Shown in pieces: positions 14 to 18,884 of a DNA stretch of 47,102 bases; the stretch's first letter is position 1; every line of letters starts with the position of its first letter. The DNA comes from a virus. Under the pieces are notes generated by a model. The model saw only the letters and a program-made list of their open reading frames with translations. It did no database searches and was not told where the DNA came from. Made by a program: the position numbers and the translations under genes. Where the stretch lies: the IMG/VR virus record IMGVR_UViG_3300032820_001714, positions 1-47,102 of that record; one strand, 5' to 3'.

Positions 14-865
14 TTAAACATAAGGCTCCAATTCTTTTGCTAATTGCTCGTGCAATATCCGTCCTGGATGGGCATTATCAGGAAAATCATCTGACTCTTT
101 CATATAATTAACAATTTCTTCATAGTCATTTACTATTTTTTTAAATTCTTCTGTTTCCGCTAAATCAGATCTTAGAGAACTAATATTATTAATTGCTTCC
201 CAAGATGTAATTAAAGGTATATCTCTACCTAGTATTTTTTTCAACCAATCTTTATGAACGTGCTTAATAAAAGAATAATCGTTTTCCATTCCCCATGTAC
301 GTCCCCATCCTTCTATTACAATCCAAGGAATGTTTGTTTCATCATAAACACGTTGAGCACCTTCAAATGCAACTTGCATTAAAGTACGATCCAATTCACG
401 AATTGTTTTAGTATAATCTATACCAGCTTTATAACTTGTTTGAAAATGTTTTTCTAAATCAACTAACCCTGCCTCTACTGCCGTCTCACGTTTATCTTTA
501 ATTCTTGTATAATTTCTAGCAGGTTCTGTTAACATCCAAATAATAACATCGGGATTATAAAATACAGGAGATGTAAAAGGAGGTGCTAATCCTAAGGCTT
601 CTTCTGCTCTAAAAATTGCTTCAAAGTTTCCAGCACCGCCAAAAGAATAATTAGCAACTGCATGACCAAACAATTTTTCTAAAGAATAACCAAAGCCAGG
701 CCAAACTAATTGAAAGGGTTTAGGATATTTTATCTCAAGATATTGATCTTGATTAAACGGTCTAAAAATAGTATTATCTCTTAGTGAAGCACACCCAGGG
801 CCAGGAGTAATTGTACCCCATTCACCTAATCCGTTACTGTCTCCAACTATTAATATTCTTTTCAT
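14..865 (-). CDS. SGNH/GDSL-type hydrolase
   Basis: This 283-residue protein is probably an SGNH-fold esterase or acylhydrolase, which would remove or transfer acyl groups, for example on sugars. The N-terminus carries a block-I-like motif (GDSN at residues 8-11). A block-II-like stretch with GGAGN follows near residue 77, then a hydrophobic strand ending in W-x-L-T-E-P-A-R. A C-terminal D-N-A-H-P could supply the catalytic Asp/His pair. No signal peptide or membrane segment is visible, so it should act in the cytoplasm or on virions. It is the last gene of a two-gene string: its ATG overlaps the stop of the upstream dehydrogenase by 4 bases (ATGA), which suggests translational coupling. A second SGNH protein is encoded at 3546-4478. 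The family call is fairly sure; the substrate is unknown. Confidence 0.72.
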   Translation of the reverse strand: MKRILIVGDSNGLGEWGTITPGPGCASLRDNTIFRPFNQDQYLEIKYPKPFQLVWPGFGYSLEKLFGHAVANYSFGGAGNFEAIFRAEEALGLAPPFTSPVFYNPDVIIWMLTEPARNYTRIKDKRETAVEAGLVDLEKHFQTSYKAGIDYTKTIRELDRTLMQVAFEGAQRVYDETNIPWIVIEGWGRTWGMENDYSFIKHVHKDWLKKILGRDIPLITSWEAINNISSLRSDLAETEEFKKIVNDYEEIVNYMKESDDFPDNAHPGRILHEQLAKELEPYV

Positions 866-2046
866 CGTGTGTTGCCATAATAAATTACCTTGTGTTTAGT
901 TGATTTATACTTCCTCCAAGGATCTACTACAATACTATCGTCATTCAAGAAGCAATATAATTCAGAATGTGCTAATAAAACAATTGCACTAAAAGGTCCT
1001 TTCTGCGGACTTACCAATGGATCGACATGGATACAATGATATCCGATATCTAAACAATAATGACCAACTAATAAACTATAACTACCATCTGTTATTTCTA
1101 CTCCTGGCTTATAACTAACTCCATTTAAGAGTATTGGCAGTTTAGTTTCATTGGCTAAATTAACTAACTTCTTAGCCATATTTTTAGCTTGTACTTCTCG
1201 TGTCTTCATTATAGCATCAAACAGATCATATTGCAAGTCCAATTTTTTGGCCATATGCCGTAATGCAATATTATCTCTTGGATGACAAGATCCACCATCA
1301 CCCATTCCTGCTGTCATATATTTTGAACTAATAATCCGTTTTTTACTTTTTGAAAGAGCGTTAGTGACTACATCGACATTAATGTTACCTTGCTTTTCAG
1401 CAACATCTTGGATCATGTTAACAAAACCAATTTTCATACTAATAAAAGTATTATAAAAGATTTTAATACACTCAGCTTCGTCCCACGTTCCTACTTCATA
1501 ACGTGGTTTATTTTCCATTATAGTTTTATAGAACTCTACTAACTGTTCTGCATCAGAAGTTAATTTTCCATCTTCAGTTCCTATAATTACCATTTCAGGA
1601 TTTATCATATCCCACGCCACAGTTCCCATAGCTATAAAATAAGGATTATAAACAAACCGTGTGTTAGTAACTAATGGAACAAACTGACTACGAGTAGTAC
1701 CTGGCAAAACAGTACTAATAAGAACTAATAATTGATCCTTGTTCATATGAAGATTTGCTTCACGTAAAACATCAATAACAATATCGTAACTAAAATCTTT
1801 AGGTTCTAAATGTGCCGTAGGGGCTTTACCGTCATAATCAGGATGATGCGGTGTAGGAACAGCAACAAAAACAATATCCCTATCTTGAACTGTTTCAACA
1901 ATATTAGCTTTAATAGATATATCGTCACTTGTTACATTGGTAATATCATACCCAGTTACATCATGACCTTTTTCAGCAATTACAGTAGCACACGGTAAAC
2001 CTAATTTTCCTAATCCAATAAACCCAATCTTCACACTATTCTCCAT
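862..2046 (-). CDS. UDP-glucose/GDP-mannose-type nucleotide-sugar 6-dehydrogenase
   Basis: This 394-residue enzyme belongs to the family that oxidises a nucleotide sugar at C6 to the uronic acid using NAD. The N-terminal Rossmann motif GFIGLGKLG lies at residues 8-16. A central helical domain follows, with the active-site motif G-G-S-C-H-P-R-D that holds the family's catalytic Cys. The C-terminal UDP-binding domain is present (GVSYKPGVEITDGS). Length is slightly below the usual 410-450. The first codon used is ATG at 2046; a GTG four codons later sits 6 bases after GGAG and is an alternative start. It heads the string with the SGNH hydrolase, and a late-promoter-like CATAAATA lies 30 bases upstream. 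Whether the substrate is UDP-glucose, UDP-GlcNAc/GalNAc or GDP-mannose cannot be read. Confidence 0.88.
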   Translation of the reverse strand: MENSVKIGFIGLGKLGLPCATVIAEKGHDVTGYDITNVTSDDISIKANIVETVQDRDIVFVAVPTPHHPDYDGKAPTAHLEPKDFSYDIVIDVLREANLHMNKDQLLVLISTVLPGTTRSQFVPLVTNTRFVYNPYFIAMGTVAWDMINPEMVIIGTEDGKLTSDAEQLVEFYKTIMENKPRYEVGTWDEAECIKIFYNTFISMKIGFVNMIQDVAEKQGNINVDVVTNALSKSKKRIISSKYMTAGMGDGGSCHPRDNIALRHMAKKLDLQYDLFDAIMKTREVQAKNMAKKLVNLANETKLPILLNGVSYKPGVEITDGSYSLLVGHYCLDIGYHCIHVDPLVSPQKGPFSAIVLLAHSELYCFLNDDSIVVDPWRKYKSTKHKVIYYGNTR

Positions 2047-3545: not shown

Positions 3546-4478
3546 ATGACTAGTATGAATATGAAAACTCATAAGAATTTAAACAAAAAACGATTAGTAC
3601 ATCTGCAACCTAAGAGAATTTTTTGCTTTGGCTGTAGCTTTACAGACTACAACTGGGGTACTTGGGCAAATATTATAGGTTATGAATTTAACGATGCAAA
3701 ATTTTATAACTTTGGTAAATCTGGAGCAGGTAATCAATATATTTTTAATATGGTAATGCAGGCCGATGCCATATATTCCTTTACACACGAAGATTTAGTA
3801 ATGGTCCAATGGACGAATGTAAGTAGAGAAGATAGATATTTTCCTGGGGAATGGTCTACACCAGGAAACATTTATTCTCAAGATTTTTATAATGACGATT
3901 GGATTAAAAAATACTTTACCGAGTATGGTGCAATAGTAAGAGATTTAGCGTTTATTAAAGCGGCTCATTCATTACTAGAACACAGAGCACAATGGCATTT
4001 CATACAAATGAATAATTTAGTTGTATATGCAGACCAATGGGATAGCTTGGTAAAAATTGACAATCGACCCCAAGCGTTTCAAGGTAAAGGACGTATTGAC
4101 GAGTTAAAAGAAATGTATAGTGAAATAGTAGGTATCCTAAAGCCTAGCTTTTATGATGTGCTTTTTAATAATAACTGGAACCAAAAATTTACAGCTGATC
4201 GCAAAATAGTTAATAAAAACTTTCAAGATGGACATCCAAGTCCATTAGAACATTATGATTATTTAAATATAATATTTAAACACGATTGGAAACCACAAAC
4301 TACAACTAAAGTTAGTAACATACAAAAGAGATGGATTGAACTTATGAATAATGCTTCACACTCTTTTAATAAAGATAAATTTAGCATTTATAAACAACCG
4401 AAACGTTGGACAGATATGGTTCGTTATGAATTAATTATACGCCCATCCGATGACATTGATTCTAAAACACACCGTTAA
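3546..4478 (+). CDS. SGNH/GDSL-type hydrolase, second copy
   Basis: A 310-residue protein with the block layout of SGNH hydrolases. Block I is F-G-C-S-F-T near residues 28-33, with Ser as candidate nucleophile. Block II contains F-G-K-S-G-A-G-N with its Gly and Asn. A block-III-like strand reads V-Q-W-T-N-V-S-R, and the C-terminal D-G-H-P-S-P-L-E-H-Y supplies Asp/His. The first 24 residues are basic and not typical of a signal peptide; an internal Met start is possible. It shares the W-T-x-x-R block-III signature with the hydrolase at 14-865, though overall sequence differs. Its ATG abuts the stop of the 45-residue gene. The last 17 bases overlap, tail to tail, the end of the radical SAM gene on the other strand. 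Likely role: deacylation or acyl transfer on sugars; substrate unknown. Confidence 0.75.
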   Translation: MTSMNMKTHKNLNKKRLVHLQPKRIFCFGCSFTDYNWGTWANIIGYEFNDAKFYNFGKSGAGNQYIFNMVMQADAIYSFTHEDLVMVQWTNVSREDRYFPGEWSTPGNIYSQDFYNDDWIKKYFTEYGAIVRDLAFIKAAHSLLEHRAQWHFIQMNNLVVYADQWDSLVKIDNRPQAFQGKGRIDELKEMYSEIVGILKPSFYDVLFNNNWNQKFTADRKIVNKNFQDGHPSPLEHYDYLNIIFKHDWKPQTTTKVSNIQKRWIELMNNASHSFNKDKFSIYKQPKRWTDMVRYELIIRPSDDIDSKTHR

Positions 4479-5640
4479 GTTCTGGAAACGTTTTATTAAA
4501 GTCTCTATTCCTTATTTTATCATAATGCTTTGTATGAAATTTAAACTTACTATGAGCTTCAGAATCATATTCTGAATTATCAATATATCTTAATACCCCT
4601 CTTAACTGAGTCATTAACCCATCACTAGTAGCTGTTTGCAAATATTGTGCAATCTTTTGATAAGCAATTTGCTTTAGAGCTATTGGCATTATATTAATAG
4701 TATAATGCCTAGGATTTACAATATTATATAAAACAACACTTGAAGTATCAAACCCTTTACTTACCATATACGCTAAATGATCTGTAACAGTCATAATATT
4801 AAATACACTTACTACAGTACTAAAATTTACCTTAACATGAGGTGATTCTGTTTTAATAAGATTTAAATTATTTTCAATATCGCTCCAAATAGTTCCTTCT
4901 CTAATATATTCAGCACGTTCACCCCAACTATCTAAACTAGCATCAATTTGAACAGTTTTAAATTTATTCCATAATTTAGTAATACATTCTTTTTTATAAA
5001 ACAAATTACTAAGATTTGAATTATATTGTAATGTAACATCAGTTCTATTATTATCAATTAAATATTCTAAAATATCATAATGCTTATCAGTAAGTAACGG
5101 TTCTCCACCAGCAAAATAAAAAACTTTTATATCTTTATAATAAGGTTTAAATTGTTCATATAATGAATCATTATTTTCTCCACCTGCAAAAATAAAAATA
5201 TCTTTATTACCATCTTCTTGGGCCCAACTAGAACTATATGTTGCACTACACGTTCTACACTTAAAATTACAAATATTACTCCAACGTACATCCATATAAC
5301 GTAATTTCATTTCATCTAAACTACCATCTGCATTAGTTTCATCAATAAATGACATAAACTTTGCAAATTTTGTATTCATATGTATACGTGAACTTTCATT
5401 ACCCACTCGTTCATGTTTCCAACATTGATTACATACGGTAGGCTGTTCGCCATTAAGCATTTGTAAACGTAATTTTTTATATTCAGGACTATTCCATATT
5501 TCTTTTATAGGAGTATCGCGAGTATTACCTAAAGGAGTATTGTAATCACCTATACAACAAGGTAATACTTTACCATCTGCATTTGCATACATATGGATCC
5601 ATGGTAGAATACATATTGTTTTAGATTTGTTTGCAGTCAT
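4462..5640 (-). CDS. Twitch-domain radical SAM enzyme A
   Basis: This 392-residue protein should use a [4Fe-4S] cluster to split S-adenosylmethionine and start radical chemistry. The cluster motif is C124-x3-C128-x2-C131, followed by F-A-G-G-E-P near residue 180, the usual SAM-contact strand. Before the barrel is a Cys-rich module (C10, C28, C29, C70, C73, with C-I-L-P-W and C-N-Q-C-W) typical of SPASM/twitch auxiliary-cluster domains, here at the N-terminus as in many marine phage proteins. The gene is last in the minus-strand string from 11826, and its start overlaps the end of radical SAM B by 20 bases. No peptide substrate or tRNA-modification signature is visible. The setting among glycosyltransferases suggests sugar or peptide tailoring, which is inference. 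Confidence 0.85.
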   Translation of the reverse strand: MTANKSKTICILPWIHMYANADGKVLPCCIGDYNTPLGNTRDTPIKEIWNSPEYKKLRLQMLNGEQPTVCNQCWKHERVGNESSRIHMNTKFAKFMSFIDETNADGSLDEMKLRYMDVRWSNICNFKCRTCSATYSSSWAQEDGNKDIFIFAGGENNDSLYEQFKPYYKDIKVFYFAGGEPLLTDKHYDILEYLIDNNRTDVTLQYNSNLSNLFYKKECITKLWNKFKTVQIDASLDSWGERAEYIREGTIWSDIENNLNLIKTESPHVKVNFSTVVSVFNIMTVTDHLAYMVSKGFDTSSVVLYNIVNPRHYTINIMPIALKQIAYQKIAQYLQTATSDGLMTQLRGVLRYIDNSEYDSEAHSKFKFHTKHYDKIRNRDFNKTFPELNGVF

Positions 5641-7006
5641 TATAAAATTTTTCTAATTCTGGAAATGTTTCAACTAAATTACAATCCCTTCGTTTATCAA
5701 ATTCAGTAAACCAATGATAAAAATCAGTACGTGCTTGTTTAAGTTTTACTTCTTCGTAATGAGTTGTTTTCATATAGTCTACTACACGACGAAACTTTTC
5801 AACTTCTAAAATACTAAATTTTGAACGATCCCCTTCTTGCTCATTATCTTCTAAAAACTGTAAATGCTTATACATATATGGCATAAACTCATCTTTCGGT
5901 AGAATGTTCATATCATATATACTGGGTTCTTTTAAATGCGGAGTATCAAATTGGACTTTTTGCCATCTTACTTGATTATCTACAATCCCGTTATATTTAG
6001 AACGCCATTCTAATATTTTTTCTAATAATAAATTAAAACTTGTAACACTAAAAATATTAAATGTAATCATAAAAATAATAGAAAAAGGAGTATTCCTTAA
6101 AAAGTAATCTAAGTTTTGATTCCATAACTCTAAATCTAATCCTGTACGAATATATTCAGCTTTAGGTCCCCACGTATCAATACTTGTGTATAATTTAAAA
6201 CTTTTAATACAATTTTTTGCTTTAAGTCTTAATACTGTCTTTGTTAATTTCTCAACTAAAGAATGCTTAACACCCATATTACTATTAACTTCTATTTGTA
6301 TATGGGGTTTAGGATCTTCTTCTAACTTATCAAATAAGTCCCACAAACTTTTGTGCATTAAGGGTTCTCCGCCAGTAATACGTAATATGTTTAATGTTCT
6401 GCTAACTTGCGGCCACCATTTCCACCATGCTTCTACATAGGGATTCTCTTCTTCCCGTTCGTACACCTTAAACCAATCAATATCCTGTCTATGTGTGCTT
6501 GACATCTTATAAGGACCATGATCTTCTATTTCTTTCCAGTATCTACTACTAGCTTTAGGATGACAATACCCACATTTAAAATTACATTCGTTTGAAAAAC
6601 TAATTTCTATATACTCTGGATCTATATTAAAGTCATCATCTGCATTTTGAATTTCTTGAACTCGGCCTGGTGTAAATATACTTGCTGTTTTAATATGTCT
6701 ATCACTGATATAGCTATCACCCATAGCTTCAATTTTCCAACAATAGCTACACCCTTCTGGTTTTTCGCCACAAAGCATTTGCTTACGCTGATCTTTTTTC
6801 TCTTTAGTATTATGTAATGCACTAGGATTATCTTTTAATTCTTCTAATGGTATAGGGTGCGGAGCAGGATGATAACAACTATGTGTTTCTCCTGTAGCAA
6901 GATAGATAGTAGTATGATGCCATTTAGCTAAACAAAATGTTGGACTAAACATTTCATTTGTTACAGGTAATATTCGGCCAATCTTTGTTATTTCATTCTC
7001 AACCAT
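5621..7006 (-). CDS. Twitch-domain radical SAM enzyme B
   Basis: A 461-residue relative of the enzyme encoded just downstream. The catalytic cluster motif is C141-x3-C145-x2-C148, followed by I-T-G-G-E-P near residue 210. The N-terminal Cys module is C25, C44, C86, C89, with a C-S-Y-C-W match to the neighbour's C-N-Q-C-W. It lacks the double Cys (CC) of enzyme A, having C-Y-H instead, so the auxiliary cluster may be ligated differently. Both proteins share a (D/S)-x-W-G-x-(K/R)-A-E-Y-I-R segment in the barrel. The ATG overlaps the stop of the next upstream gene by one base (TAATG). Overlap and shared architecture suggest an ancient duplication and perhaps action on one substrate. The product is unknown. 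Confidence 0.85.
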   Translation of the reverse strand: MVENEITKIGRILPVTNEMFSPTFCLAKWHHTTIYLATGETHSCYHPAPHPIPLEELKDNPSALHNTKEKKDQRKQMLCGEKPEGCSYCWKIEAMGDSYISDRHIKTASIFTPGRVQEIQNADDDFNIDPEYIEISFSNECNFKCGYCHPKASSRYWKEIEDHGPYKMSSTHRQDIDWFKVYEREEENPYVEAWWKWWPQVSRTLNILRITGGEPLMHKSLWDLFDKLEEDPKPHIQIEVNSNMGVKHSLVEKLTKTVLRLKAKNCIKSFKLYTSIDTWGPKAEYIRTGLDLELWNQNLDYFLRNTPFSIIFMITFNIFSVTSFNLLLEKILEWRSKYNGIVDNQVRWQKVQFDTPHLKEPSIYDMNILPKDEFMPYMYKHLQFLEDNEQEGDRSKFSILEVEKFRRVVDYMKTTHYEEVKLKQARTDFYHWFTEFDKRRDCNLVETFPELEKFYNDCKQI

Positions 7007-7302
7007 TATCCTACCCAGTTTAAATCTTTCGCATATTCTTCTCTTCGAATTTTTTCTGAAGGTCTAACTTGTGGATACTTTAATTGAAACAACATAGCTT
7101 TACGTTCATCTTTAAATGTTGCATATACGTGACAATGCATTACATCAAAGTCTTTAGGTACACTTCTTTCTTCCATTAATTCTCCACCATAGAGAAATGC
7201 ATCACTTAATACATCACCTAATTGCTCTAGCATAATTGTATCATGCCATATATCAGAACTTTCATCATCTTTCATACGAAATGTTCCTATATAATATCTC
7301 AT
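7006..7302 (-). CDS. Hypothetical protein, 98 residues
   Basis: I do not recognise this protein. It is soluble and rich in acidic residues and Met in the first half, with a basic stretch near the end (about residues 82-90). It has one Cys, in M-H-C-H-V, and no repeats or membrane segment. The gene is held on both sides by coupling overlaps: ATGA (4 bases) with the glycosyltransferase upstream and TAATG (1 base) with radical SAM enzyme B downstream. It is therefore co-translated with them. Its position directly before the radical SAM pair would suit a small partner or substrate-carrier protein, but nothing in the sequence shows a leader-peptide layout. Confidence 0.6.
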   Translation of the reverse strand: MRYYIGTFRMKDDESSDIWHDTIMLEQLGDVLSDAFLYGGELMEERSVPKDFDVMHCHVYATFKDERKAMLFQLKYPQVRPSEKIRREEYAKDLNWVG

Positions 7303-8195
7303 TTTCTACCTATTACCCTATCTGTATTAATATAAACAGTTTTAAAAAACTTACTTTGCTCTGCTGACAACGGTTGATGATCCATTGGCAAGCCTAATTC
7401 ATTTAAACGCCAACCAAGTTCACCTATTCTATGATATACTTCTTCATCCGCTACTTTACTATATTTCTCATTCCACATTTTATTAAGAATAGTAAAGTCT
7501 CTTGTTTGCGAAACGTCCCAATCAGTAAGTGCGAGTTTACATCCTTCTCTAGCACCATAAATTGCCCATAGACCATGCTCTACATCTGTGCCAACATTCA
7601 TCCATATTAACAGTCTATGATAATTTTGCCACCAAACATCTTTTGCTAGGTCAGTAACTTTAGCACCTCTGTTAAGACTCATCTTAACACCTTCTCTAAA
7701 CCCTGCTCTAAAGGCTTGGGCTTTAGTTGAGTTAATAATACTTTCACTATAATTGTCATTTAACTGATAGTAATTGTCAAAATAGCAAAACTCTATCATA
7801 GTATCATCATTACCGTCGGTGTTTTCGTGTGTACGCATATTCTTAACAAAGTCTTTGGTCCACATTTTCAAACTACCATTACCGTACATTAACCCATTGA
7901 CGTTAACTTTACCACACCAACTAAATTGATAGTCATCATCTACACCTAATTCTTCTAATTCAAGAACAACATTTAAAAATTTAGGATCAATAATAGTATC
8001 ACCATCTACAGTAACAAAATGTTTGGTCTCAGATAACTCTGCACACGCCTTATGAGCGGCATCTGAACCTTCTACACCATGAACACGTTTGGCCCATGGC
8101 ACTTTTTGTACTAGGTCAACGTAATTCTTTTCACAATTAGGTTCATCGTAACTTAAAAAAATTATATCTTGTTCTGCAATTTTAATATTGCTCAT
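7299..8195 (-). CDS. Glycosyltransferase (GT-A-like) protein
   Basis: A 298-residue protein that looks like a GT-A fold sugar transferase. Its N-terminal half runs from the strand I-I-F-L-S-Y-D-E-P-N, through G-S-D-A-A-H-K-A, to H-F-V-T-V-D-G-D-T-I-I-D near residue 62. The D-G-D matches the metal/nucleotide-sugar-binding DxD of this fold. The C-terminal half has many Trp and Tyr residues and no membrane segment. It overlaps both neighbours by 4 bases. The family call is from motif order; the donor sugar and acceptor cannot be read. Marine T4-like phages commonly carry similar genes near tail-fibre modules. Confidence 0.68.
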   Translation of the reverse strand: MSNIKIAEQDIIFLSYDEPNCEKNYVDLVQKVPWAKRVHGVEGSDAAHKACAELSETKHFVTVDGDTIIDPKFLNVVLELEELGVDDDYQFSWCGKVNVNGLMYGNGSLKMWTKDFVKNMRTHENTDGNDDTMIEFCYFDNYYQLNDNYSESIINSTKAQAFRAGFREGVKMSLNRGAKVTDLAKDVWWQNYHRLLIWMNVGTDVEHGLWAIYGAREGCKLALTDWDVSQTRDFTILNKMWNEKYSKVADEEVYHRIGELGWRLNELGLPMDHQPLSAEQSKFFKTVYINTDRVIGRK

Positions 8196-8461
8196 GCTTT
8201 ACGCTTTCTCCACCATAGTGGAATGTACCAAACAATCATAAAAACAGGTACAGCTATTAAAACCCAAACATATTTTGCTTCCCACAAGTAAATCATTCCT
8301 CCAACAGCAAGAATGTCAATAGTACTATGAACAATTAGGAACCATTTCCTAGTCATTCTATCCATAAGACGTTGTCTAACATCACGTAGGTATGGACTAT
8401 AATGACGGATCATACTAAATCCATCATTTAACAAAAAAATTAATAAAAGTACATAAAACAT
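8192..8461 (-). CDS. Small membrane protein, 89 residues
   Basis: A short hydrophobic protein with a first segment at about residues 1-14 (FYVLLLIFLL) and two further segments near 43-59 and 66-83. Arg-rich loops lie between (RDVRQRLMDRMTRK), and the tail is W-W-R-K-R-K-A. The positive residues predict a cytoplasmic loop and C-terminus. The gene sits inside the glycosyltransferase string with a 4-base overlap downstream and a 1-base overlap upstream. It could anchor the sugar enzymes to the inner membrane or alter surface polymer export, but no family is recognised. Confidence 0.6.
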   Translation of the reverse strand: MFYVLLLIFLLNDGFSMIRHYSPYLRDVRQRLMDRMTRKWFLIVHSTIDILAVGGMIYLWEAKYVWVLIAVPVFMIVWYIPLWWRKRKA

Positions 8462-9024
8462 TATCGTATTACCTCCAAGGCATATTTGTCAAATCTTTTC
8501 ATTGTATAAATTGAAACCGGCTCACCCAGAAATTCAAAGTCTTCCGTAAACGGTAGTATAAGATACTTACTATTTTCTAGTTTACTAAAATCAAATCGCA
8601 ACGTTTTATAAAGAATATTAGGATCATTTTTTCTAGTAACACTAAAACTTAATTTATTATTAAAACTTACTTTTTGTGACAATAAATTAACTTTAAGGTT
8701 ACCTCCTATACAAACTTTCCAACAAGTATCTTTAATATTTTGTGTTATAGTTAAATCTGCATTACTAGTTTTTCTAGTGGGAACTTCATATATGAGATCA
8801 TTGACATTATATGAGTCTATTTCATCTAGTAAGCGAGATTTTAACTCATATTGTTTTTTACGTTTAGAGTATTCAACACAATAATGAGATAATTGTTCAA
8901 GCCCTTTTAAAATACCTTCAACACTCGTTGGCTCTACTTTGATAAAACTTCCTTCTGTTGGTTTAACATTAGGTAGTGATAAAACTTCGCCTGTGTCTGG
9001 GTTAAAAATAACGTAACGTTCCAT
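8461..9024 (-). CDS. Hypothetical protein, 187 residues
   Basis: I do not recognise this protein. The N-terminus has a strand-like V-I-F-N-P-D-T-G-E-V. A charged helical stretch (about 53-85) follows, rich in Lys, Glu and Leu, then a beta-rich C-terminal half with alternating hydrophobic residues. It has two Cys close together (D-T-C-W-K-V-C) and no membrane segment. The stop and start codons are shared by single bases with the genes on either side, so it belongs to the same translated string as the membrane protein and the short dehydrogenase. Confidence 0.58.
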   Translation of the reverse strand: MERYVIFNPDTGEVLSLPNVKPTEGSFIKVEPTSVEGILKGLEQLSHYCVEYSKRKKQYELKSRLLDEIDSYNVNDLIYEVPTRKTSNADLTITQNIKDTCWKVCIGGNLKVNLLSQKVSFNNKLSFSVTRKNDPNILYKTLRFDFSKLENSKYLILPFTEDFEFLGEPVSIYTMKRFDKYALEVIR

Positions 9025-9797
9025 TATATCGTTCCTTGTTCCCTTAATAACTTTAAATCTTTTCTAACTCCGCGATTATATTTTAAAACTTCGACTAATA
9101 TAGACAAAGTTTCTGGATCTGTATTAAGTAACGCTTCAACATCTTTCGGTAAACAACGACCACCATAGCCTTGCAGACCATCATCACCAGGTACTGCGGT
9201 ATGACTATGTCCTATACGTTTATCAATAGCAACTAAACTATTAACTGTATTATAATCTAACTTGTGTTCTGTACAATAATCGTATACTTGATTAAAGAAA
9301 GTTACTTTCGTGGCTAAAAAAGCATTTCTAAATAGCTTCGAAATTATTAATGCTCTTGGATTTTCTACAGTTACAGTAAAATAAGGATTAAACACCTTTG
9401 TCCAAAACTTTGTAGCACCACCACCTATATACATCATACCTTGCTTCTGAAAATCTTCAAGCGGATTTGCGGCAGTAAGAAATTCAGGACTAAAAGTTAT
9501 AGGCTTATTACCAAACATTGTTATTAATGTTTCCCATCCACGTAAACTTATTGTGCTTTTTATTAAAATAGGTATTCTATTAGGCACTTGCTTTACAACA
9601 TCAATAACATTTTTCATTTGACAAACACCTTGAAACGTTGGAGTATCTACGCATATGATTACACCGCCTGGTTTATTCCACCAAGGTGATATTGTCTCTT
9701 TATTATACTTAGGATCTACAATTTTTGCGTTAGTTAAAACACTATGAACTGCTTTGCCTACGTATCCATATCCTGCTATCGTAATTTGAGGTCTCAT
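9024..9797 (-). CDS. Short nucleotide-sugar dehydrogenase lacking the C-terminal domain
   Basis: A compact relative of UDP-glucose dehydrogenase. It shows the Rossmann motif A-G-Y-G-Y-V-G-K-A, then S-T-I-S in the linker region, and the catalytic motif G-G-R-C-L-P-K-D. It ends soon after the central domain, so the C-terminal UDP-binding domain of the full-length family (and of the enzyme at 862-2046) is missing. I chose ATG at 9797, giving about 257 residues, because it forms an ATGA overlap with the stop of the upstream gene, as elsewhere in this string. ATG at 9809 would add four residues (M-V-K-S). The catalytic Cys and its motif are intact, so it may be active in altered form, work on a different substrate, or pair with another protein that completes the site. 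Confidence 0.78.
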   Translation of the reverse strand: MRPQITIAGYGYVGKAVHSVLTNAKIVDPKYNKETISPWWNKPGGVIICVDTPTFQGVCQMKNVIDVVKQVPNRIPILIKSTISLRGWETLITMFGNKPITFSPEFLTAANPLEDFQKQGMMYIGGGATKFWTKVFNPYFTVTVENPRALIISKLFRNAFLATKVTFFNQVYDYCTEHKLDYNTVNSLVAIDKRIGHSHTAVPGDDGLQGYGGRCLPKDVEALLNTDPETLSILVEVLKYNRGVRKDLKLLREQGTI

Positions 9798-10630
9798 ACT
9801 TTTAACCATTTTGTATATTTCTTAATTTTGTCATACGTAACAAAATCTTTCTCAGTATAATGAAAAATTCCTTGTTGCATATGGTTTCCTATTTTTAATT
9901 TTAACTCTGGAGTCAAATAACTCCCTACACGGTTCTGCCATTTACTACTAGGCTGTTCCCATCCTTGCACATATGATTTCATATGTGTAAAACTTGGAAA
10001 TAAACTTTTATTATTTGTAATCTTCTTATCACAGTTAAGTATTTTAGCAACTATTGACGCACTTAAATCAACACTTAAACTTTTTTGGTATAATTCCTTG
10101 GCATATTTGCTATAAAACAGTTCCCAGTTATTCATTACTAATTCTAACCATGTATAAAACTCTTTTGCAAACTCTGACTTTTTAAAATAATGAAATCCTG
10201 CATATAAATTAGGTAATTTATTTGCTGTAAAAGTTTTACGGTAATAATCGCTTGTTATTAGTTCTCCTCTATACGTATAAACATTACTAACAAAAAATAA
10301 ATCATAATTTTTTAAAAATGCCCACCAATTTTCTAAGTCTTGTAATACTAACATATCAGTATCAAGCACAATTGTTTCGTCGTATGGTGAAGCATGATAT
10401 AACTTCCAACGATTATCTACTTTCCAGTCTTTATCTTCTGCACTATCATTCCATGGTATCTCTTTAATGACGTCAAATAGCTTTTTATACTTTGCTGGAA
10501 CATCATCATTAGTAATTAAACAAATATTACACTCTTTTTGAGTTGCTTTTAAGCTCATGGCTAATAGACACGCTTGTTTTACGTAATCATTTTCACTATT
10601 TTGTGCTAAAAATACAAAACCTTTACGCAT
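9794..10630 (-). CDS. Glycosyltransferase with DxD motif, paralogue 1
   Basis: A 278-residue GT-A-like protein. It begins with a strand and helix (G-F-V-F-L-A-Q-N, D-Y-V-K-Q-A). The sugar-nucleotide/metal motif follows in Y-D-E-T-I-V-L-D-T-D-M-L-V near residues 89-99, as in GT8-like and related nucleotide-diphospho-sugar transferases. It has no membrane segment. It is clearly related to the protein encoded next upstream: both share D-Y-V-K-Q-A, Y-D-E-T-x-x-L-D-(T/S)-D and a C-terminal H-(Y/V) segment, so they look like a tandem duplication that has diverged. Its 5' end overlaps the upstream gene by 8 bases. Donor and acceptor are unknown. Confidence 0.74.
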   Translation of the reverse strand: MRKGFVFLAQNSENDYVKQACLLAMSLKATQKECNICLITNDDVPAKYKKLFDVIKEIPWNDSAEDKDWKVDNRWKLYHASPYDETIVLDTDMLVLQDLENWWAFLKNYDLFFVSNVYTYRGELITSDYYRKTFTANKLPNLYAGFHYFKKSEFAKEFYTWLELVMNNWELFYSKYAKELYQKSLSVDLSASIVAKILNCDKKITNNKSLFPSFTHMKSYVQGWEQPSSKWQNRVGSYLTPELKLKIGNHMQQGIFHYTEKDFVTYDKIKKYTKWLKV

Positions 10631-11486
10631 TATCTATTATCCTATTAAGACTAAACTTGTTCATGACATGAACACTAGTACCTCTTATTCTTAGTGGCGT
10701 ATATTCTCCTAAATACTTTTCCTTTTGTATTAAGAACAAAAAATTATCCTTTTGTAATTCCCATAAAATATCCCTATCACTTGTAAAAAACATTTTACCT
10801 GGCATTGTATGAGAAAAATCTCCACGTTGATAACCATTCATTATATGGATTGCAATACTAAACACCCAATCATTACGAAATGTTCCTTTATTAATTTGAA
10901 AGATACTATTATAGTGTTGCCAGTTTTCTTGGATATGCTTTGTTAGTTCAAAAAATATCTTATTAGTTTCTGTTTTTCTAAAAAATACACACGTGGCCCA
11001 ATAAAAATCAACACTAGTATCACTAACATGAACAAATTGTGGGTCATTTCTAAAACCACTTAAATCATGTGCTTCTTTGTAAATTAAAAAATCATGGTCT
11101 TGTGTAAAACAATGCTTAAACAACTCATCACTTACAACATAATCACTATCTAACATTAATGTTTCGTCATAAGGTGATAAATCAAATGCACTAGTTCTTA
11201 GGTCGTTCTTAAATTCTAACTGTTTAAAGATATTAGTACCGTCATAATAACGTTTATGACTTGGAGATTTTGCTAATGGAACTTTGATTACTTGATCAAA
11301 GACTGTTTTATAGTCTTTATATGTGTCTTTAAGATATTCAACACTATCAGTAACTACAGATGTAGGAAGATCAAGATACTGCTTAATACGTTTTGCTAGG
11401 AAATGTGCTTGTTTTACGTAATCTATCTGGGCATTATTTCGAGCAAAAATTAATACACCTTTTTTATTGCTCTGGCTCATAGTCAA
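10623..11486 (-). CDS. Glycosyltransferase with DxD motif, paralogue 2
   Basis: A 287-residue paralogue of the downstream enzyme. The N-terminal region has G-V-L-I-F-A-R-N-N and D-Y-V-K-Q-A-H-F-L-A. The DxD motif is in Y-D-E-T-L-M-L-D-S-D-Y-V-V at about residues 107-119. Here it is preceded by an insertion including K-S-P-S-H-K-R-Y-Y-D-G. The listed start at 11486 overlaps the upstream gene by 23 bases; an ATG two codons later (11480) reduces this to 17 and is equally possible. It is likely a cytoplasmic sugar transferase in the same pathway as paralogue 1, perhaps adding successive or alternative sugars; that is inference. Confidence 0.74.
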   Translation of the reverse strand: MTMSQSNKKGVLIFARNNAQIDYVKQAHFLAKRIKQYLDLPTSVVTDSVEYLKDTYKDYKTVFDQVIKVPLAKSPSHKRYYDGTNIFKQLEFKNDLRTSAFDLSPYDETLMLDSDYVVSDELFKHCFTQDHDFLIYKEAHDLSGFRNDPQFVHVSDTSVDFYWATCVFFRKTETNKIFFELTKHIQENWQHYNSIFQINKGTFRNDWVFSIAIHIMNGYQRGDFSHTMPGKMFFTSDRDILWELQKDNFLFLIQKEKYLGEYTPLRIRGTSVHVMNKFSLNRIIDNA

Positions 11487-11826
11487 CTAATCCTGGTATA
11501 GTTCTTTTGGTCCTAATTTTTTCGTATTCTGTTTGATATTCATTAGTTGCAGTAAAGTAAATGTCTAGAATGTCATCAAAGAACTTAATTAAATCTTTAA
11601 TTTTAATAGGAGTGTCATTGTCATCAAGTAATACTATATCAGCATCATTACCTTTACTAACAAGCATACTTACAAAAGTAATTAATTCTTGAGTAACTGA
11701 AAATTGGCCGCCGCTGAAATAATGAACAGCACTTTGATAATACTTTTCTTTTAAAACACGCTTTTGATTATTCAGCGTGACCATGTAATTCGAAAATTCT
11801 AATGCTTTGGATAATCGTTCATCCAT
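11464..11826 (-). CDS. Hypothetical protein, 120 residues, first gene of the sugar string
   Basis: An acidic, mostly helical protein with F-S-N-Y-M-V-T-L-N-N-Q-K near the start and a central L-L-D-D-N-D-T-P-I-K-I-K-D-L. It ends Y-E-P-E-Q. I recall similar short proteins next to fibre genes in marine T4-like phages, with no assigned function. It opens the minus-strand string running to 4462. An AGGAGAT ribosome-binding sequence lies close before the ATG, and a weak late-promoter-like ATTAAATA lies 24 bases upstream. Position between fibre genes and glycosyltransferases would allow a fibre-assembly or chaperone role, but the sequence does not show one. Confidence 0.62.
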   Translation of the reverse strand: MDERLSKALEFSNYMVTLNNQKRVLKEKYYQSAVHYFSGGQFSVTQELITFVSMLVSKGNDADIVLLDDNDTPIKIKDLIKFFDDILDIYFTATNEYQTEYEKIRTKRTIPGLVDYEPEQ

Positions 11827-11849: not shown

Positions 11850-11857
11850 TATTTAAT
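11850..11857 (-). promoter_or_regulatory. Weak late-promoter-like ATTAAATA
   Basis: Minus-strand ATTAAATA, 6 of 8 bases of the T4 late box with the conserved TAAATA half, 24 bases before the ATG at 11826 in the 56-base gap after the fibre genes. It lies inside an imperfect 26-base inverted repeat (11835-11860). It is the only candidate found for the ten-gene sugar string, and the weakest of the series. Confidence 0.35.
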
Positions 11858-11882: not shown

Positions 11883-12797
11883 TTAGGTTAGATCGGTGGA
11901 CGGGTCATTAGCATACGTTGGTGTTGGAACCGAAACGTTCACGCCTGTTGCACGGAATTGAGTAATGACGCTTGTAAGTGTACCTAGTACGTCTTCATCA
12001 GTTGGTGTACCTGGATCTGTAGGATCATCGTCATTAAAATTAATTTTAAATGTTATAATATTTGGATTAACTGCTATATTACCTTTTACTTCAATAATAT
12101 AATGGTTTTCTGTATATTGTCCTGTGCCTTGCTTATCAAAAACTGCTTGATAGCTTGTAGTAAGATCATGATAACCAAGACTTGATCCTGTACCTGTTCC
12201 ACCAATAGATGCTGTTTCTGTATAGTCAAATTTTATTGTTTGCATATTAACTAGCATTGTAGCCCAGTCAATTGTTTTAGCTTCTGTAATTCCAGGAGCA
12301 TTAATGTTTGCAGAAAAACGAACTTCGCTTCCTGAATTGAAAAAGTGTCTTGCATGATCACTATCTGTAAACGTTACATTTACTATATGAGCAAGTTGAT
12401 TCTTCCAAGGTTGAGTATATTGGCCTTGAGTTCCTGTTGCTTCAACAGTACCTTGATTTACATCAATAGAGAATCTTTCATTTTCAAGTGTTTGACTTAA
12501 CCCTTCGTATTGGGCAATACCCTTTTTATTAATAGCATTACTATCTTCAATTAGATCAGTCTGGGCAATAAGAGTTATTTCACTAGGTGATGTATTTGTT
12601 TGGTGTATTCTACCCGCCGCTAGATCATCAAAAAGCAACGACATATGAGTTGCTGTTACTTTTTCACTAACAGATACTTGTGAACTGTTCAAGGATTGGC
12701 CGTAACCTTCATCACCGGAGCCATTCCCCATAATCGTTGCAACCCGACTCTGTAATAAATTGTATCGAGCCGCTTCAATAAGATCGCCTACTGCCAT
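11883..12797 (-). CDS. Putative virion structural protein, tail/fibre associated
   Basis: A 304-residue protein with no enzyme motif. The start contains L-I-E-A-A-R-Y-N-L-L-Q-S-R-V, then M-G-N-G-S-G-D-E-G-Y-G-Q. This opening is familiar from structural proteins of marine T4-like phages, often near the fibres. The middle is beta-rich with many Thr, Ser, Asn and Gly. A low-complexity acidic stretch near residues 258-270 (N-D-D-D-P-T-D-P-G-T-P-T-D-E-D) looks like a linker. It follows the fibre gene at 12802 with a 4-base gap and a plausible AAAGG ribosome site, so the two form one transcript. Probably a small fibre or fibre-attachment protein. Confidence 0.55.
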   Translation of the reverse strand: MAVGDLIEAARYNLLQSRVATIMGNGSGDEGYGQSLNSSQVSVSEKVTATHMSLLFDDLAAGRIHQTNTSPSEITLIAQTDLIEDSNAINKKGIAQYEGLSQTLENERFSIDVNQGTVEATGTQGQYTQPWKNQLAHIVNVTFTDSDHARHFFNSGSEVRFSANINAPGITEAKTIDWATMLVNMQTIKFDYTETASIGGTGTGSSLGYHDLTTSYQAVFDKQGTGQYTENHYIIEVKGNIAVNPNIITFKINFNDDDPTDPGTPTDEDVLGTLTSVITQFRATGVNVSVPTPTYANDPSTDLT

Positions 12798-12801
12798 TTT
12801 A

Positions 12802-14307
12802 CTATACCTTTAATATACATTCAACTAGTTTTTCAGAAGTACTAGCATTTGATTCGAGAGCAACACCTACTATTAATGCATCATTTTCAATTACGGTAGT
12901 AGCTGTTCCTGTTCTTCCTGCGTAAATACTTTGTCCTTTAACTACTGGTCCTGTTACTCTTACTGGAACTCGTCCTTTAAGTGCAACATTTTGTCCTGAT
13001 GCATCTTTATTCATTAAGAAAGCTGGGTTTTCACTAATAACACCAACTGGTGCTGGAGGAGTAAATCCTAAAGCCTTGTCTTCATTTGTTACATCACATT
13101 CTTTAAGTTCTGTTCCAGCTATACCTGATACTGCTACGACTGTACCAATATCATATTCTTTATCAGTTGTGTATTTTTCCGCCAAGTCAGCGTATTGTGC
13201 CGCTGTAGCTGTACCATGAAACTCGTTTGCAAATATATTAGCACTTCCATCTCTAACTGCAACTGTATTATTACTTGAGGCAGTATCTGCAGATCTAAAA
13301 TTAGCACCTACTTTAAGTGTTTCAGCTTGTGAAGCCAACCCAGTAAATGCAGTTGCATAAATGTTTGCAAATTTTAATGCTGTTTTTCCTAATTCAAATG
13401 TATCAGTTGTTGGTGGATACATTCCTGTTGCATCCATTGTAAGCGGTTCTTTAACATTTCCTAAATTGTCATCTAATTTAAACTTAATTAACGTACCAAC
13501 CTGATTCTGTATAACGCCTTCATTGTCATTCTCAATGTAAATCTTCATGTCATTGGAATCACCAATGGCAATACCAGCATCTGCAAAAGTTGTTAATGAC
13601 GTAAATGCACCTGATCCTGCAAGAGCAAAATCTGTATCAGATTTACCATTTAATAGTAAGGCGTTACTTGCAGTTCCCCAGTAAAAGTCTGTTGAACTAG
13701 TTACTCCGCCTGTTGCGTTTGTTGTATTACGTAATGTTGTACCCTTTTTAATACTATCAAAACCTGTAATAGCATTTGATGGGTCTGTTGAGTCAATTGT
13801 AAATGCTACTGAACTAATAATAAAGATTACTTCATCATTTACAACTGCTTTGATAATAATTCTGTTTACACTAGTGGTATCACGAACAGTTGTAGTAACC
13901 ATTTGTGAAACAGTAGCGCCAACGCCTTGAGGTCCTATTAATACATATCCTGAACCGTTATAAGCATATAATTGTTCATTTGCAGAATCCCACCATAAAT
14001 CACCAGTGGCTAATCCTGCTGGAGCAGTAGTGGCAACTTCAGCGCCACCTGTAGTTCTAAATTTAGAACCATCATAAAATTTTAATTTACTTGCTGTAGC
14101 ATCATACCAAATTTGCCCTGATATGGCTTTTGGCGGCTGTGCCGCTCCACTAAAATTTTCTAGTAAGTGTAAGAAATTCTCATTCTGAATTTCGCCGTAT
14201 CCTGCATAGTTTTTACCTACTAATTTGATATCAGTAGTTTGGTCAACCGTACCGTCTTCTACGACTACTAGTGTTACACCACTATATCTATCTATTGTAT
14301 ATGCCAT
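12802..14307 (-). CDS. Tail-fibre-like protein (fibre A), 501 residues
   Basis: This is one of three adjacent fibre proteins with the same N-terminal domain. Residues about 28-80 hold V-G-K-N-Y-A-G-Y-G, N-F-L-H-L-L-E-N-F and G-Q-I-W-Y-D. A second short unit with G-D-L-W-W-D and Y-N-G-S-G-Y follows. I infer that this shared part docks to the baseplate. The middle is beta-rich with fibre-like repeats such as D-T-F-E-L-G-K-T-A-L-K-F-A-N-I-Y-A. The C-terminal 130 residues, starting Y-A-D-L-A-E-K-Y, with G-R-V-P-V-R-V-T-G-P-V and K-G-Q-S, match a domain I know from other phage fibres. A ribosome site AGGGG precedes the ATG, and a late-promoter-like GATAAATA lies 21 bases upstream. It is distal in order to the collar-bearing fibre at 16209. 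Confidence 0.75.
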   Translation of the reverse strand: MAYTIDRYSGVTLVVVEDGTVDQTTDIKLVGKNYAGYGEIQNENFLHLLENFSGAAQPPKAISGQIWYDATASKLKFYDGSKFRTTGGAEVATTAPAGLATGDLWWDSANEQLYAYNGSGYVLIGPQGVGATVSQMVTTTVRDTTSVNRIIIKAVVNDEVIFIISSVAFTIDSTDPSNAITGFDSIKKGTTLRNTTNATGGVTSSTDFYWGTASNALLLNGKSDTDFALAGSGAFTSLTTFADAGIAIGDSNDMKIYIENDNEGVIQNQVGTLIKFKLDDNLGNVKEPLTMDATGMYPPTTDTFELGKTALKFANIYATAFTGLASQAETLKVGANFRSADTASSNNTVAVRDGSANIFANEFHGTATAAQYADLAEKYTTDKEYDIGTVVAVSGIAGTELKECDVTNEDKALGFTPPAPVGVISENPAFLMNKDASGQNVALKGRVPVRVTGPVVKGQSIYAGRTGTATTVIENDALIVGVALESNASTSEKLVECILKV

Positions 14308-14327
14308 AGTTTAACCCCTGTTAGTTA

Positions 14328-14335
14328 TATTTATC
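14328..14335 (-). promoter_or_regulatory. Late-promoter-like GATAAATA
   Basis: Minus-strand GATAAATA, 7 of 8 bases of the T4 late box, 21 bases before the ATG of fibre A at 14307, with AGGGG between. It lies in the 33-base gap after the fibre gene at 14341. It would serve fibre A and the structural gene at 11883. Confidence 0.55.
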
Positions 14336-14340
14336 GATTA

Positions 14341-16209
14341 TTACCATAAACCACCGCTGGATGAACGAAGACTCTCAAAAACCCAAAAGCCACCATTTAC
14401 GATAAAACGTCTTAATCCTCTATCAATATCTACATTAACAGTACCACTTGCGGCTGTAAATGCAATATCCTGTAATACACTTTCATTCTGTACACCATTT
14501 GAATCAACTGCAATAAATGATTTGCTTAAAACTGGTGTATCTACATTAATTCCTGTTACCTGTGCGCCTGAAATTGAATTAATTAAAACATAAGCATACG
14601 AGCCAGTCTTTTTATTTCCCGCTGGATATATATCATCAATTATCGTGGCAATTTCTGCGTTTGATAGTGAGTTGCCTATGCCAGGCAATGATATATCCAT
14701 AGTCAAAATAACAGGCTCTTCATTTAATTGGTCATCTACATAAAACTTGGTTGCAACTGATGAATTAGTTGTAGGCTCAGCTACCCCTGTAATTTCTTGT
14801 GGACCACCTCGAAGGGTAGGTGGATTTGTTGAGTTATCAGTGTCTAAAACAAGTTCAATAGGTCCGTCACTAGCAATTTGTAATCCATCACCATCAGTTC
14901 TAATTCTAACAGCCTTAAACTCTAATTTATCAACATTTAGTTTTGCAAGGGTTCCAACACTTGTTAAAGCTGACTCTAATACTGTATCACCTAATTTTGT
15001 TTTGTTTAATATTTCTACTCCGTCTGCTTTATAACCTTTTGTCGCGGCTAAATCAATATTTTCTGAACTAGTCCACGCTTGAGCTGTATTTTTCCACAGC
15101 CATTCTTTATCACCCTCTGATGATTTAAGTATGATTCCTCCATCATTAATTCCAGCATCATTAAGTGCACCACCACTTGGTATTCCTAATTCAATATTCT
15201 TGTCTTCTACTTGTAAATTTTGTGTTTCTACAAAAACAGTTGCACCAGCTACACTAAAGTCACCATCAATTCTCATATCTCCACCAACATGAAGTGCATA
15301 TTGTGGATCTGATTCAAAAATTCCGAAATGTTCTTCTGATGTATCGACTACAAGAGCATCAATAAACCCTTGTGGTTTTCTAACCCTAACTTTCCAGTCA
15401 TGATTAGATAATTGATTTTCACTAACAAACGATGTACCTACTACTTTTAAAATATTATTTTGTGCTAACCCAAGAGTAAGTCCGCCTGAGTTTTGTATTG
15501 TTAATGTTCCAGTTGTAGTCGCATTAGCATCTGCAGGCAAAAATTGTGCGGCTGATTTTACATTCCCTTGAGAATCTCTTAATGCACTAGCTTGGTCGGC
15601 AATACCTCTGAATCTAAAATCTGTAATACTAACAGGTGTAAATCCATGTTTAATATCTCCAGTTATACCAGAAATTGTAAATCCTACTGCTGGTGTAAAT
15701 TCTGTGTTGCTCCATACACCTACAATAGTTCCTGCAATAAAATATTTCATTACAATGTGAGTATTATTAAATGTATCTACAAGTGTAGCAATTTCAAATC
15801 CACTCTTACCTTGTGTACTACTATAAATCGGCCCAGCTAATTCTAATTCACTTCCATCATAAAAATAAAGTTGGTTAGCATCACTATCAATCCAAAGGTC
15901 GCCTGCAACCAAATCACTTGGCTGTGAGGCTTGTACCGAAGGTGCTCCACTAGTTCTAAAACCTACACCGTCATAAACTTTTACTCGTTGTGTTGATGTA
16001 TCATACCATAGTTGTCCTGTTAATGGATTACTAGGAGCAGAGGACTTCGCAAAGTTCTCTAACATTTTAATTAAGTTTTCGTTTAACGGTTCACCAAATC
16101 CTGAATAGTTTTTACCAATTAAAGAAATATCAGCTGTAGTTGTATCTAATTGGCCGTCAACTAAATCAACTAATAAAGTTCCATCTGTTTTGTTTAGTTT
16201 ATAACTCAT
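14341..16209 (-). CDS. Tail-fibre-like protein (fibre B), 622 residues
   Basis: The second member of the three-gene fibre family. The N-terminus repeats the shared pattern (I-G-K-N-Y-S-G-F-G, M-L-E-N-F-A, G-Q-L-W-Y-D, then G-D-L-W-I-D and Y-F-Y-D-G). The centre contains V-E-D-K-N-I-E-L-G and D-G-G-I-I-L-K-S-S-E-G-D-K-E-W-L-W, a unit familiar from cyanophage fibres. The end is distinct from fibres A and C, with R-R-F-I-V-N-G-G-F-W-V-F and a Ser/Gly-rich tail. No collar domain or adhesin is recognised at the tip. The start codon overlaps the stop of fibre C by one base, so it is coupled to it. Likely a trimeric fibre or fibre segment on the baseplate. Confidence 0.75.
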   Translation of the reverse strand: MSYKLNKTDGTLLVDLVDGQLDTTTADISLIGKNYSGFGEPLNENLIKMLENFAKSSAPSNPLTGQLWYDTSTQRVKVYDGVGFRTSGAPSVQASQPSDLVAGDLWIDSDANQLYFYDGSELELAGPIYSSTQGKSGFEIATLVDTFNNTHIVMKYFIAGTIVGVWSNTEFTPAVGFTISGITGDIKHGFTPVSITDFRFRGIADQASALRDSQGNVKSAAQFLPADANATTTGTLTIQNSGGLTLGLAQNNILKVVGTSFVSENQLSNHDWKVRVRKPQGFIDALVVDTSEEHFGIFESDPQYALHVGGDMRIDGDFSVAGATVFVETQNLQVEDKNIELGIPSGGALNDAGINDGGIILKSSEGDKEWLWKNTAQAWTSSENIDLAATKGYKADGVEILNKTKLGDTVLESALTSVGTLAKLNVDKLEFKAVRIRTDGDGLQIASDGPIELVLDTDNSTNPPTLRGGPQEITGVAEPTTNSSVATKFYVDDQLNEEPVILTMDISLPGIGNSLSNAEIATIIDDIYPAGNKKTGSYAYVLINSISGAQVTGINVDTPVLSKSFIAVDSNGVQNESVLQDIAFTAASGTVNVDIDRGLRRFIVNGGFWVFESLRSSSGGLW

Positions 16210-18876: not shown

Positions 18877-18884
18877 TATTTATT
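18877..18884 (-). promoter_or_regulatory. Late-promoter-like AATAAATA
   Basis: Minus-strand AATAAATA, 7 of 8 bases of the T4 late box, 19 bases before the ATG at 18858. It overlaps the last codons and stop of the giant gene, so the fibre transcript would start inside the end of that gene. Confidence 0.55.

Follow-up and report, generated by a model that had tools for sequence, protein, structure and literature searches.

A set of five genes, u120-GT287-GT278-u187-GT298, constitutes a fixed unit that is linked to tail-fibre genes and that stands behind them in more than 100 uncultured marine and freshwater phage sequences. One copy lies in the window, that is, the whole stretch of 47,102 nucleotides analysed here, a 47-kb fragment of the virus record IMGVR_UViG_3300032820_001714, from a marine T4-like phage, that encodes homologues of the T4-like proteins gp55, gp46/47, gp6, gp25 and gp5. 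By their late sigma and baseplate proteins, the nearest cultured phages are jumbo phages of the PA5oct and Phosso types and phages of the Atu_ph07 type (36-45% identity), and HTVC008M is absent among the cultured matches listed for these proteins; tblastn searches of cultured phages with u120, GT278, GT298, a GT298 from the minimal clade described below and the paralogue gave no match. Our interpretation, which we put forward tentatively as a possibility somewhat short of probable, is that the core is a glycosylation unit whose target is the fibre, and that the sugar-tailoring genes next to it are exchangeable and optional.

In the window, the core is embedded in a string of ten minus-strand open reading frames that runs from 11826 to 4462 in the window's ORF list without any gap (Table 1), in the transcription order u120, GT287, GT278, UGD2, u187, mem89, GT298, u98, RS2 and RS1. 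Successive genes overlap by 23, 8, 16, 1, 1, 4, 4, 1 and 20 bases, the first value falling to 17 with the ATG at 11480 as the start of GT287. An earlier note, made from the sequence alone, had described this overlapping string, and its inventory held up: two twitch radical SAM enzymes, which score 387 and 308 bits against the NCBIfam model NF033640 for radical SAM proteins with a twitch domain (cut-off 170), three glycosyltransferases, two recognised by sequence profile and GT298 by fold only, a UDP-glucose/GDP-mannose dehydrogenase without its C-terminal UDP-binding domain, one membrane protein and three unknowns. At its far end, the 3' end of RS1 overlaps that of a plus-strand gene by 17 bases, end to end; this convergent gene has no Pfam match. 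The left end of the window falls within a larger island and cuts it.

Table 1. Positions of the ten-gene string and of neighbouring features in the window.
Feature	Position	Strand	Description
UGD1	862..2046	-	longer nucleotide-sugar dehydrogenase, same island
Convergent gene	3546..4478	+	SGNH-hydrolase-like by a GCSF motif (by eye)
RS1	4462..5640	-	second radical SAM enzyme, N-terminal twitch/SPASM; accessory
RS2	5621..7006	-	radical SAM enzyme with N-terminal twitch
u98	7006..7302	-	no assigned function; accessory
GT298	7299..8195	-	GT-A-fold, probable glycosyltransferase; best conserved core glycosyltransferase
mem89	8192..8461	-	small membrane protein; accessory
u187	8461..9024	-	beta-rich, fast-evolving protein; core
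UGD2	9024..9809	-	truncated UDP-glucose/GDP-mannose dehydrogenase; accessory
GT278	9794..10630	-	GT8-like (glycogenin-like) glycosyltransferase with DTD motif; core
GT287	10623..11480	-	GT8-like glycosyltransferase; ATG start at 11480, TTG at 11486 as alternative; core
u120	11464..11826	-	first gene of the string; small protein without assigned function; core
TAAATA late-type motif	11850..11855	-	29 nt upstream of u120
Four tail-fibre-type genes (304, 501, 622 and 676 aa)	11883..18239	-	located ahead of the core in nearly every relative

The fixed character of the core emerged from a comparison of about 240 IMG/VR loci. The order fibres-u120-GT287-GT278-[..]-u187-[..]-GT298-[..]-RS2 recurred in the 80 loci found with RS2, and UGD2, mem89, u98 and RS1 were present in only part of them; UGD2 is missing from most relatives, and the position of u98 holds u98, an 81-aa ORF or nothing. 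A second set of 123 distinct loci was selected by GT298, with counts restricted to loci with enough upstream DNA: u120-GT287-GT278 lay upstream of GT298, in this order, in every one of the 90 loci that extend 4.5 kb or more upstream, and 81 of the 82 loci that extend 6.5 kb or more have a fibre gene on that side. Once RS2-selected loci were pooled with these, there were 3 exceptions in 129. The order of the core holds over RS2 identities down to 65% and also in clades without RS2. The gene that follows GT298 in the GT298-selected loci varies, being RS2 (75), a GT298 paralogue (27), RS1 (8) or others, and contigs of 161, 116 and 82 kb from the group with the paralogue keep the core and contain no NF033640 gene. 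RS2-like genes also occur without the glycosyltransferase core in other phages (L248, L251, L254, L257, L267 and others). Since the genes after GT298 vary and since the core and RS2 each occur alone, the boundary between what is fixed and what is exchangeable falls after GT298, inside the ten-gene string.

These comparisons divide the earlier proposal of one pathway made in fixed proportion. It does not hold for the string as a whole, for UGD2, mem89, u98 and RS1 are missing in many relatives, RS2 is missing in a whole clade and overlaps are ordinary. Independent shuffling of the genes in related phages, which the note had named as a finding that would speak against it, is indeed seen for the accessory genes, and u120-GT287-GT278-u187-GT298 stay together. 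The sugar-tailoring character of the region, the placement of radical SAM enzymes beside sugar transferases and the link to fibres are supported.

The overlaps themselves, which had suggested coupling, were rejected as proof of a single pathway. Neighbouring genes on the same strand overlap at 96 of 178 junctions in the closest 200-kb relative (54%, a somewhat inflated figure as it was counted on longest-start ORFs), and runs of 7-8 overlaps are present there, so that overlaps alone are weak evidence. What does go beyond chance is that the gene order is kept and that the overlap is conserved at most core junctions across relatives.

Motifs upstream of u120 suggest that the core is transcribed on its own, with the proviso that our promoter calls are consensus scans only and that the counts refer to distinct but related sequences rather than to independent events. 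TTGACA/TATAAT with at most one mismatch was found upstream of u120 in 74 of 148 distinct regions, and the same sigma70 consensus in 0-3% of those before the fibre gene and most inner core genes and in 8% before GT298. Before the fibre gene F501, TAAATA is found in 95% of cases. Among 80 genes with a 5' gap in the 200-kb relative, 42 have TAAATA, 12 a near-consensus sigma70 promoter and 2 both, so that the two classes hardly mix. In the window, gp55 is preceded by TTGACT-N17-TATAAT; the region upstream of u120 contains no sigma70 match (4 mismatches, p 0.42 against shuffles), and in the window's clade the late-type TAAATA precedes u120 as it precedes F501. With such promoter-like motifs upstream of u120, the core seems to be transcribed as a separate unit, apparently of early type in some lineages and of late type in the window. 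TAAATA appears to serve as the late motif. The corresponding T4 word, TATAAATA, was rejected for this role, with 1 match in the whole window against 13 expected from shuffles; such strong avoidance occurs here in a phage that encodes gp55.

The three transferases of the core differ in how they could be recognised. GT278 matches glycogenin at the profile level (E 1e-4) and carries a DxD, which places it in GT8, and GT287 is homologous to it (hhalign, E 1e-25); as neither has a Pfam GT8 match, their membership in this family is remote. The LPS core is also a target of GT8 enzymes. GT298 has no sequence-family match; its predicted model (mean pLDDT 84) weakly matches GT-A type structures (E 2.5e-4 to 1e-3, TM about 0.3), including SunS, which acts in peptide glycosylation, and a PBCV-1 capsid glycosyltransferase, and D64 and D66 of a D-x-D motif (D64-G-D66, D-A-D in some) are invariant. 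By this predicted fold, GT298 is a probable glycosyltransferase. The glycosyltransferases of the string appear soluble, and neither a GtrA flippase nor a GtrB bactoprenol glucosyltransferase was matched among the ten genes. Judged by identity to the nearest large relative, GT298 (92%) and GT278 (91%) are better conserved than most virion proteins (67-83% for fibres, 83% for gp6 and 68% for gp5). UGD2 comprises the NAD and central domains, with GYGGRCLPKD and its Cys present, and falls short of a full UDP-glucose dehydrogenase as the UDP-binding domain is missing.

The most diverged member of the core is u187, which was recognised in 111 of the 129 pooled loci and for which a fold search returned uncharacterised viral proteins only, with no PDB match. 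In its long homologues, a region of repeats is inserted that matches CBM5/12 below threshold, and the homologues in L188, L266, L167 and L132 are split by one or two such CBM5/12-like repeats (Y-GIHVDVWY..GQHVW.N.VYK). A single gene of 4931 codons (18880-33675), nearly one third of the window, encodes a virion structural protein (phrog_10938) that has a CBM5/12 domain scoring above cut-off and also matches an FG-GAP repeat. Together, the repeats and this domain suggest that u187 may be a carbohydrate-binding part of the tail.

Both radical SAM enzymes score well above the NF033640 cut-off. The CxxxCxxC motif and the N-terminal auxiliary cysteines are invariant in 25 RS2 and 15 RS1 sequences (in RS2, C141-xxx-C145-xx-C148 and C25/C44/C86/C89), and RS2 is the most conserved enzyme among aligned relatives (mean column identity 79%). 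To our knowledge, NF033640 has no assigned reaction. A viperin (pVip) identity was rejected, the only matches being weak (38 and 24 bits, far under the cut-off of 180), as was a RiPP cassette, since no conserved small ORF of at least 45 aa lies beside RS2 in 80 loci. A single frame of 862 codons joins RS2 and RS1 in the 199,810-bp relative (G001; L106, G001:60001-80000, 12150-14738), through either a genuine fusion or a mistake in assembly. The island of this relative also holds class III and class I/II aminotransferases, an AMP-binding enzyme and more radical SAM proteins, and long-contig relatives mostly have 4-13 NF033640 matches, strong and weak ones pooled, clustered downstream of the core. 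The cultured phages K566 and KVP40 have distant members of the family, around which no fibre or glycosyltransferase genes are annotated. In phages without the core, two genes that carry no label, about 477 and 485 aa long, often precede the RS2-like gene. Bacteriovoracaceae and related MAGs (L099, L100, L101, L102) carry a single conserved RS2-like gene (38-39% identity), a chromosomal gene near rplU/obgE that was rejected as evidence for the host.

How might these genes work together? We propose that the core, with its own promoter region directly behind the tail-fibre genes, would supply the GT8-like GT287 and GT278 and the GT-A enzyme GT298 for the assembly of a short glycan from nucleotide sugars, and that the acceptor would be phage-encoded, most likely a tail-fibre protein. 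UGD2, mem89, u98, RS2, RS1 and further downstream genes would represent the start of an exchangeable sugar-tailoring island, whose dehydrogenases and radical SAM enzymes would, in the lineages that have them, alter the sugar by oxidation, epimerisation, deoxygenation or similar, giving a lineage-specific glycan on the fibre. Gene order, its conservation, promoter-like motifs and a form without radical SAM genes are seen directly in the sequences; we infer the glycosyltransferase activity, the fibre as acceptor and the radical SAM substrates. The fixed fibre link, the slow rate at which GT298 and GT278 evolve and the minimal form without radical SAM genes together favour a phage-encoded acceptor and hence fibre glycosylation. 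That tail-fibre glycosylation extends over uncultured aquatic T4-like and jumbo phages, with a bank of radical SAM enzymes diversifying the fibre glycan by lineage, is a broader proposition that we consider unlikely as a whole.

A competing possibility, which we regard as rather doubtful though worth weighing, is that the core and the island alter the host glycan bound by the linked fibres, blocking superinfection or the loss of progeny on debris, so that fibres and masking enzymes form one host-recognition module. The kept position of the core would fit such a receptor or receptor-masking module as well as it fits fibre decoration, variable O-antigen-like accessory genes adjoin the core, and the same idea was proposed for the pelagimyophage host recognition clusters with their GT8 and radical SAM cassettes (PMC7029224). 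The sigma70 promoter before half of the u120 regions, with hardly any before fibres, would allow expression by the host polymerase independently of the late fibre genes; expression ahead of the fibres suits host takeover and is compatible with fibre decoration, which does not require it. In the window's clade, however, the u120 motif is late-type, and the core contains neither a flippase or polymerase nor a GtrA/GtrB-type membrane partner. Its glycosyltransferases are, moreover, better conserved than fibres and almost never replaced, which would be unexpected if they faced diverse host glycans in an arms race and better suits a phage acceptor. The presence of SunS and the PBCV-1 enzyme among the GT298 fold matches also speaks for the fibre, but these matches are weak and GT-A folds are generic. 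On balance, we lean slightly towards fibre decoration rather than host-surface remodelling as the putative role. It is improbable, in our judgement, that the radical SAM enzymes are instead peptide maturases acting on a protein such as the fibre or u187, with the neighbouring sugar transferases a separate matter: many peptide maturases have an N-terminal twitch/SPASM architecture and such enzymes appear as secondary matches of the string enzymes, RS2 is highly conserved and it occurs without glycosyltransferases in Bacteriovoracaceae chromosomes and other phages, but no precursor-like small conserved ORF adjoins it, and twitch radical SAM enzymes that act on small molecules exist (BtrN). Least probable of all is a loose set of auxiliary genes without a shared product, held together solely by compact late transcription, as the commonness of overlaps and the coming and going of accessory genes could suggest; against it stand the almost unchanging order in which fibres and the five core genes occur in more than 100 distinct loci and the in-frame RS2-RS1 fusion.

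Virus-encoded glycosylation of virions is known from PBCV-1 (A64R) and from the capsids and tails of mycobacteriophages. Fibre decoration by the core would resemble the A64R type in that a viral glycosyltransferase lies beside structural genes and in the weak fold match of GT298 to the PBCV-1 enzyme, whereas the glycosyltransferase families differ. Compared to gtrABC serotype conversion, phage glycosyltransferases that could change host glycan are present in both, but here GtrA/GtrB were not detected and the glycosyltransferases appear soluble. Closest in content is the host recognition cluster of pelagimyophages, a hypervariable island in the structural region of marine T4-like phages that contains tail fibres, GT8 glycosyltransferases, a UDP-glucose 6-dehydrogenase and radical SAM cassettes and that was described as non-syntenic (PMC7029224). 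Fibres, GT8, dehydrogenase and radical SAM genes in marine T4-like phages are common to both and thus already published, whereas here five genes keep an invariant order behind the fibres with or without radical SAM genes; in a limited literature search, we found no description of the invariant five-gene core, its radical SAM-free form or the two promoter types.

Tail fibres set host range, and a transferase cassette practically never parted from them in hundreds of aquatic phage contigs, with no cultured phage found to carry it, points to a general step, in receptor masking or in the maturation of fibres, that work on laboratory phages would not reveal. The radical SAM-free clade offers a minimal system that is testable in a standard expression host, and the island is a source of uncharacterised radical SAM enzymes. 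If the broader proposition on aquatic T4-like and jumbo phages is true, phage receptor-binding proteins would carry radical-modified, lineage-specific glycans.

The relatives also resemble, by description, the T4-like environmental genome TARA_ERS488813_N000010 (about 183 kb, 12 radical SAM genes; PMC5332604), being of similar size, T4-like and endowed with many radical SAM genes and an A-type Fe-S carrier (PF01521). PMC5332604 relates such Fe-S/radical SAM-rich genomes to Fe-S metabolism rather than to fibres or glycans. Among host and Fe-S clues, no psbA-type gene was found in 14 contigs and no IscU in the relatives searched, and the 200-kb relative has 2 tRNA genes. The carrier was found in 4 of 12 relatives, e.g. 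G001 (L364), G013, G018 and G021, where it perhaps serves the numerous Fe-S enzymes; it occurs also in one relative without NF033640 genes.
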